DNA of 64,000 nt from Alphaproteobacteria bacterium (GTDB lineage: Bacteria; Pseudomonadota; Alphaproteobacteria; Micavibrionales; Micavibrionaceae). The position numbers and the translations under genes are program-made. The stretch is from the NCBI GenBank assembly GCA_018608245.1, contig JABAZY010000052.1, forward strand, positions 3,624-67,623. The letters run 5' to 3'. Positions 24,854-60,342 of the stretch are shown here, piece after piece. How positions within the stretch are numbered: the first letter of the stretch is position 1; the number at the start of each line of letters is the position of its first letter. The notes below the pieces were generated by a model, which saw nothing but the letters and a program-made list of their open reading frames with translations, did not search any database and was not told where the DNA came from.

Positions 24854-24913
24854 TGTTCGATTGAAATATTCAGCTATCCTTTTGAAAAGATTTCATAAAG
24901 GGAGCATTTAACG

Positions 24914-26347
24914 ATGAGTATTGACCAGCAGATTGACGAAGCTTTTAAGCCGATTGCCAAGGCAATATCGGACACTATTTTCTATGCGGAACCTATTACA
25001 GGCTATGACATTAAGCTGATTTTGGTTTGGCTAGTCCTTATCTCGTTGTTCCTTACTATATATTTGGGATTTATAAACCTTCGCTATTTCAAGCATTCTA
25101 TCAATATCCTGCGTGGTAAATACGATAAAAAGAATGATAAAGGTCAGATTAATCGTTTTCAAGCTTTAGCAACCTCGTTGTCAGGCACGGTTGGTTTGGG
25201 GAATATTGGTGGCGTCGCTGTAGCGGTGTCTACTGGTGGCCCTGGAGCGTTATTCTGGATGGCGATGATGGGTTTGTTTGGGATGAGTGCCAAGTTCGCG
25301 GAAGCGGCTCTTGGGGTTAAATACAGGGTTATTGCCGATGATGGGCAGGTCTCTGGTGGGCCAATGTATTATATCAAGGCCGCGTTTGAGAATATTGGTA
25401 TGGCTAAAATGGGTGCGTTTTTCGCCTTTCTATTTGCTGTTTGTATTGTTGGTGGAGCTGTAGGGGCAGGAAACATGTTCCAGTCTAATCAGGCGTTTCA
25501 ACAAGTTTTAAATGTAACGGGTGGCGAAGAGAGCGTGCTTGCGGGCAAAGGTTGGATGTTTGGTATCTTCTTGGCGGTTTTGGTCGGTGCCGTGATTATC
25601 GGTGGGCTGAAATCTATCGCAGCTGCGGCATCTAAAATTGTGCCCCTGATGGGAGCCATATATTTAGTGGCTGGATTAGTGGTTATTGCGATGAATGCAT
25701 CGGCTATTCCTGCTGGGTTTGCGACTATCTTTGAAACAGCTTTAACGCCAGAGGCTGGTTTTGGGGCTGTGTTGGGGGCGTTGCTTATTGGAGTTCAACG
25801 GGCGGCGTTTTCTAATGAGGCTGGTATTGGGTCTGCGGCTATTCCACATTCTGCTGCGAAAACTAACGATCATGTGTCTCAGGGCTTTGTTGCTATGCTG
25901 GGGCCGTTCATTGACACAATCGTCATCTGTATGGTGACAGGCTTGGTTATTGTGATGAGCGGTGTATATGAGGGTAGTGACGGCATGGAAGGGGTGACAT
26001 TAACCTCCAGCGCCTTTGAATCTGCTATACCTTGGTTCCCTTATGTCTTAACGCTGACGGTATTCTTGTTTGCTTTTTCAACGATGATTGCTTGGTTTTA
26101 TTACGGGCTTAAGGGGCTTCAGTATTTGGTTGGTAACTGTAAGTTTTCAGAGAATGCTTATAAGATCGCGTTTTGTTTATTTATCATTGTTGGGGCATCA
26201 ACGAAGCTTGGGTCTATTATAGATTTCTCTGATGCGATGATATTCGCGATGGCTATTCCGAATGTTTTAGCATTGTATTTATTAGCACCAGAGTTAAAGT
26301 TAGATATTAAAAAATATCTGCAAAACATTGATAAGATTAAGAAATAA
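24914..26347 (+). CDS. Alanine/glycine:cation symporter family (AGCS) transporter
   Basis: TVGLGNIGGVAVAVSTGGPGALFWM, NEAGIGSAAIPHSAA. Confidence 0.94.
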   Translation: MSIDQQIDEAFKPIAKAISDTIFYAEPITGYDIKLILVWLVLISLFLTIYLGFINLRYFKHSINILRGKYDKKNDKGQINRFQALATSLSGTVGLGNIGGVAVAVSTGGPGALFWMAMMGLFGMSAKFAEAALGVKYRVIADDGQVSGGPMYYIKAAFENIGMAKMGAFFAFLFAVCIVGGAVGAGNMFQSNQAFQQVLNVTGGEESVLAGKGWMFGIFLAVLVGAVIIGGLKSIAAAASKIVPLMGAIYLVAGLVVIAMNASAIPAGFATIFETALTPEAGFGAVLGALLIGVQRAAFSNEAGIGSAAIPHSAAKTNDHVSQGFVAMLGPFIDTIVICMVTGLVIVMSGVYEGSDGMEGVTLTSSAFESAIPWFPYVLTLTVFLFAFSTMIAWFYYGLKGLQYLVGNCKFSENAYKIAFCLFIIVGASTKLGSIIDFSDAMIFAMAIPNVLALYLLAPELKLDIKKYLQNIDKIKK

Positions 26348-59635: not shown

Positions 59636-60025
59636 TTAAGCGCTTTGGGTGCCGTCTTCTTGACCATCCTTAACAGGGGTCATGCTCCACATTTGTTCGA
59701 TGTTATAGAATTCGCGGACTTCGGGGCGGAATAGATGTACGACGACGTCGCCAGCATCCATAACAACCCAGTCACCTTGAGGAGCGCCTTCTATTTTAAT
59801 TTGCTTAACACCACGTGCATTCAAGCGATCTTTCAGCTTTTCTGCCATGCGGACGACTTGTGTGGTGGATGTTCCTGAAGCAACGACGATATAATCTGCC
59901 AAGGCTGATTTCCCAGCAAGTTCGATTACTTCTATTTCTACAGCCTTATCATCGTCTAATGATTGGATGATAAGATCTTTAGTCTCAGAGGGTTTCAGCC
60001 TCTCGATTGATGTTGATGTTAGAAT
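59636..60025 (-). CDS. rsfS: Ribosomal silencing factor RsfS, apparently with an AUU start codon
   Basis: In-frame extension of the tracked ORF gives LTSTSIERLKPSETKDLIIQSLDDDKAVEIEVIELAGKSALADYIVVASGTSTTQVV. AGGAGG is 7 nt before ATT at 60025; no in-frame ATG/GTG back to the stop at 60041-60043. Confidence 0.75.
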   Translation of the reverse strand: MLTSTSIERLKPSETKDLIIQSLDDDKAVEIEVIELAGKSALADYIVVASGTSTTQVVRMAEKLKDRLNARGVKQIKIEGAPQGDWVVMDAGDVVVHLFRPEVREFYNIEQMWSMTPVKDGQEDGTQSA

Positions 60026-60342
60026 GTTAATGCCTCCTATTTAATTACACTTACGTACAAACCATAGTTTTCAATAATATTCAACAGCGCACGCCAAATT
60101 TAGCGCCAAAATAAGTATTTGGCACAAAGGTGACATATCCAAAATAGTAATTGGGGGATTTTTTGAAAAGAAGCATGGGGCATAACTTGATTAGCGCCAC
60201 ATAACCTCGCTTTCATAAGCTGTAAAATGTATCAAAAACACACTGTCCATACCTATATTCTACCGCGGATTCGAGTTTTCAACAATAAAATCCTGCTAAG
60301 TGGTTGATTTTAAATATTAAAAAAATCTATTAATAAGCTGAT

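Follow-up and report, generated by a model that had tools for sequence, protein, structure and literature searches.

The window, which is the whole stretch of 64,000 nt analysed from a Micavibrionaceae genome, carries rsfS on its minus strand, separated from nadD by a gap of 317 nt (60026-60342) that ends at the putative rsfS start. The features of the start region are as follows.

60041-60043, minus strand: TAA in frame, the upstream boundary of the rsfS frame, read from the sequence
60033-60038, minus strand: Shine-Dalgarno sequence (SD) AGGAGG, 7 nt before the start codon, read from the sequence, with a strong SD at the equivalent place in relatives
60023-60025, minus strand: putative AUU (ATT) start codon of rsfS, from comparative evidence
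59636-60025, minus strand: predicted rsfS coding sequence from the ATT, 129 aa plus stop, from the sequence and a PF02410 match over residues 18-113
59687-59974, minus strand: RsfS domain match (PF02410), a profile match converted from contig coordinates

The minus-strand codons that follow the TAA are ATA GGA GGC ATT AAC ATT CTA ACA TCA ACA TCA ATC GAG AGG CTG AAA CCC, and the frame between this stop and the RsfS domain contains neither ATG nor GTG, as the sequence-only reading of this DNA had stated. That reading also described an exact AGGAGG 7 nt before the ATT at 60023-60025, which we find as described, and an ORF called from an internal TTG and lacking the RsfS N-terminus. The TTG in question, at 59902, is the first canonical codon in the frame and indeed falls inside PF02410; the domain begins at about 59974, and a start at this codon would remove about 24 domain residues. 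Further near-cognate codons are present in frame (ATA 60040, ATT 60031, ATC 60007 and CTG 59998), and among all of these only ATT 60025 has both proper SD spacing and conservation. When translated from this ATT, the product matches PF02410 with 107.9 bits (cut-off 21.6) over positions 2-98 of the 98 in the profile; this coverage of the full length assigns it to the RsfS domain, and it is the sole RsfS match in the genome, the assembly of which is in 72 contigs.

The nearest named loci are those of Micavibrio and of Micavibrionaceae metagenome-assembled genomes. Starts were called by a fixed rule that uses SD run and spacing and sets the best canonical codon against the best non-canonical one. 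Applied to 34 rsfS loci of the Micavibrionaceae, it returned 26 ATT, one ATC, three TTG (L019, L042 and L047), one ATG and three ambiguous cases; the locus called ATG (L039) also shows, by eye, an ATT with its SD at the aligned position, giving 27/34 with ATT. In other families of the order rsfS starts at ATG, GTG or TTG, and these, together with the TTG starts within the family, indicate that the rare start is not indispensable. The sequence-only reading had proposed aligning the upstream regions of relatives, and this was done for 57 genes, comprising the family and the nearest named loci, some of which carry the label Rhodospirillales or Magnetovibrio. Counting 17 triplets back from the domain anchor, one meets ATT in 39 of the 57 genes, ATC in one and ATA in none, and several of the remaining genes have the same SD and ATT displaced by a codon or two. 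Internal isoleucine codons of the same genes are ATT 255 times, ATC 226 times and ATA 92 times (Fisher p = 3e-12, a value that is indicative only, the sequences being related). Since an internal isoleucine would not be restricted to ATT, the aligned codon is best regarded as the start. The suggestion that AUU is the rsfS start thus gains from a position, codon and SD that are kept over many genera, with ATT exchanged at that place for other codons capable of starting. We consider AUU initiation on rsfS near certain from these comparisons, and translation of this Micavibrionaceae gene from 60025-60023 in particular very highly probable.

The survey was extended with a test blind to the start codon. 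For each of 207 distinct rsfS genes, almost all of them from Alphaproteobacteria, it recorded which in-frame codon follows the strongest SD. At a spacing optimum of 7, the observed (expected) counts are 45 (3.5) for ATT, 14 (2.5) for ATA, 13 (5.5) for CTG, 10 (3.2) for ATC and 9 (4.0) for ATG, so that non-AUG codons stand ahead of ATG. The rank of the codons shifts as the optimum is varied, and at 5 the first place is taken by GCC, a codon just before the start; ATT, ATA, CTG and ATC remain enriched. A class-wide draw of 90 rsfS genes gave 39 non-AUG, 15 canonical and 36 ambiguous starts, a split that is approximate, as the caller produces some false positives (L155 and L110, with a call in or near the domain, are examples) and misses genes with weak SDs. 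The 39 non-AUG calls are 13 ATA, 12 CTG, 9 ATC and 5 ATT, the CTG calls being less certain than the ATN calls. In 27 of these 39, as a raw count, the codon is followed by one for Ser, Ala, Thr or Pro; the same residues occupy this position at many real N-termini. Outside the Alphaproteobacteria none of 40 rsfS genes (E. coli included) was called non-AUG and 27 were canonical. As controls, rpsP gave ATG in 26/30 with one non-AUG call, and infC of the order gave 40/47 non-AUG. The gene rlmH proved unsuitable as a negative control, having few strong SDs (a run of at least 5 in 19/99), and rpsP was used instead.

We mapped the calls on a tree of the RsfS domain for the 150 callable genes, with L039 set to ATT by hand; the protein is short, and the counts should be taken as approximate. 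Canonical and non-AUG starts replace one another 20 times on this tree (mean 38.8 and minimum 32 with shuffled labels), and the four non-AUG codons interchange 22 times, suggesting that codon identity wanders and that the class of start tends to persist. As judged from these comparisons, the rare rsfS start is a trait of many lineages in the Alphaproteobacteria, and is wider than the single-gene oddity first noticed.

From E. coli genetics, IF3 is known to discriminate against the near-cognate codons AUU, AUC, AUA and CUG. The window rsfS, with AUU behind an SD and conservation in relatives, has a start of this class. The infC gene of the same genome (L259; contig C52 of G000, 24893-26202) starts at ATC, with AAGGAG before it (AAGGAGACACAAACC-ATC), and over the order infC starts at ATC, ATT or ATA. 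Strong SDs are common to infC and the family rsfS genes, and so is a C before the start codon (31/43 and 25/33, respectively, versus 9/25 for rpsP). By its sequence, rsfS looks like a second gene, beside infC, with a start in the set discriminated against by IF3. Coupling of rsfS to IF3 or to initiation fidelity is plausible, and the case is strengthened because infC of the same genome has AUC in a similar context. The two genes differ in that infC is autoregulated by IF3, a scheme that does not apply to rsfS, where the candidate control by IF3 would act in trans.

Several known systems resemble this arrangement in part. E. coli infC starts at ATT, which we checked, and E. coli pcnB is another chromosomal AUU gene, its start being read from the K-12 record; pcnB encodes poly(A) polymerase, whereas rsfS is a ribosome-silencing gene in which the trait extends across many alphaproteobacterial families. 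A working model is Streptomyces sigR, a regulatory gene repressed in trans by IF3 through its rare start (PMC5472188); that start is GTC, the organism belongs to the Actinobacteria and the proof is experimental, whereas rsfS is argued here by comparison. Staphylococcus aureus cvfC1 (AUU) and ccpN (AUA) have, like rsfS, conserved rare starts with strong extended SDs (PMC13009471), but these are other genes, in Bacillota, and are backed by initiation profiling and reporters. The E. coli orthologue of rsfS (ybeB) is likewise not AUG-started, but its UUG (TTG) is accepted by IF3, unlike the AUU-type starts of the Alphaproteobacteria. In E. coli lacking rimM both IF3 and RsfS are elevated and a joint action against premature subunit joining has been proposed (PMC13246957); since E. 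coli rsfS starts at TTG, this case shows the two proteins acting together and not the shared control considered here. RsfS orthologues are reported to bind uL14 and block subunit joining (PMC7125091).

We propose that the AUU of rsfS would be read by initiator tRNA as Met, and that the strong SD 7 nt upstream would hold this start in place. From the start site and its conservation, which the alignments of relatives demonstrate, we infer a reduced yield, a response to IF3 and a joint rise of IF3 and RsfS. Synthesis of RsfS would be kept low, with IF3 activity on the 30S subunit as its gate. A drop in free IF3 relative to 30S would increase initiation at the rsfS AUU and the infC AUC together, and both anti-association factors would rise, IF3 on 30S and RsfS on 50S through uL14. 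We put the probability of this explanation as a whole, a conserved AUU start with IF3-gated synthesis of RsfS, at roughly 0.65, and regard the gating by IF3 taken singly as moderately probable. The broader suggestion, on which we would give even odds, is that in many Alphaproteobacteria infC and rsfS may form a circuit sensed by IF3, in which both mRNAs have IF3-rejected starts and a fall in IF3 activity on 30S leads to joint production of the factors that block 30S/50S joining.

The simplest rival is that the AUU start is real but merely sets a constant low level of RsfS, with no physiologically useful response to IF3. In poor medium the S. aureus AUU and AUA starts reach about 10 % of the expression obtained with AUG, and the cvfC1 AUU showed no medium effect (PMC13009471), both of which fit a constant setting. 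So does the outcome of a search for other control elements at rsfS: an Rfam search of the leader for regulatory RNAs gave no match, the start shows no unusual RNA structure (z-scores +0.9 and +0.7) and the matches of a sigma-70 scan of the leader did not exceed those of shuffled sequences. Against it, the strong SDs partly compensate for the weak codon, AUG with a weak SD could equally give a low level, and the start codon varies within the IF3-rejected set (AUU, AUA, AUC and CUG), as it does in infC; we consider a constant setting unlikely. Less probable still, and in our opinion improbable, is a neutral relic, in which an ancestral alphaproteobacterial non-AUG start of rsfS has been tolerated because little RsfS is needed and has drifted among near-cognates. 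The repeated shifts to ATG, GTG and TTG, represented by the 20 changes of class on the tree, agree with such a history, but ATT is kept in the 57 genes far beyond its use for internal isoleucine, the strong SDs are maintained, and the more efficient AUG is only one base away.

Two further rivals question the AUU itself, and are effectively excluded by the relatives, the position of the domain and the SD. Translation might begin downstream, either at TTG 59902, to which its place as first canonical codon draws attention, or at CTG 59998; the former has no SD in addition to lying within the domain, the latter lacks both a properly spaced SD and conservation in relatives, and we think either start very improbable. 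An ATG wrongly sequenced or assembled as ATT might be entertained for an assembly in 72 contigs whose nearest named relatives are metagenome-assembled, but ATT is found at the equivalent place in dozens of independently assembled genomes, and the chance of such an error is negligible.

To our knowledge, very few genes are known with IF3-rejected starts. Our search of open-licence PubMed Central papers yielded no account of a non-AUG start for rsfS/ybeB, and absence there is no proof of novelty. A ribosome-silencing gene that keeps a rare start across many families suggests that start-codon fidelity may serve as a signal that sets ribosome silencing, and the same kind of rare start on infC and rsfS suggests that the two genes may be controlled together. 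A practical corollary is that in many alphaproteobacterial genomes the annotated rsfS may be wrong or truncated.

Some individual loci deserve mention. In Rhizobiaceae and Phyllobacteriaceae (L102, L108, L114, L117, L123 and L137) rsfS has an apparent CTG start behind AAAGGA, and within the Rhizobiaceae the GTG of Shinella corresponds to GTA in Neorhizobium, a difference that favours the CTG. The rsfS genes of L112 and L133 have GAGGAGGAGCAACAA-CTG (or CAGCAA), and here an out-of-frame ATG AGG AGG ... TGA reading frame runs across the SD and terminates at the CTGA of the start; translational coupling is possible at these two loci.

A scan covering 304 kb of the genome, with 315 ORFs of 110 codons or more, flagged 14 of the 315 as having an SD plus a non-AUG codon and no competing canonical start, one of these being an LpxK ORF (L310) with an in-frame ATG three codons downstream. 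The top score was shared by rsfS and a relaxase ORF of the MobA/VirD2 type (L315:3791-5200, minus strand), which has a strong SD before an ATC and a poor SD at an ATG 13 codons on, and which is a possible second candidate for a non-AUG start in this genome.
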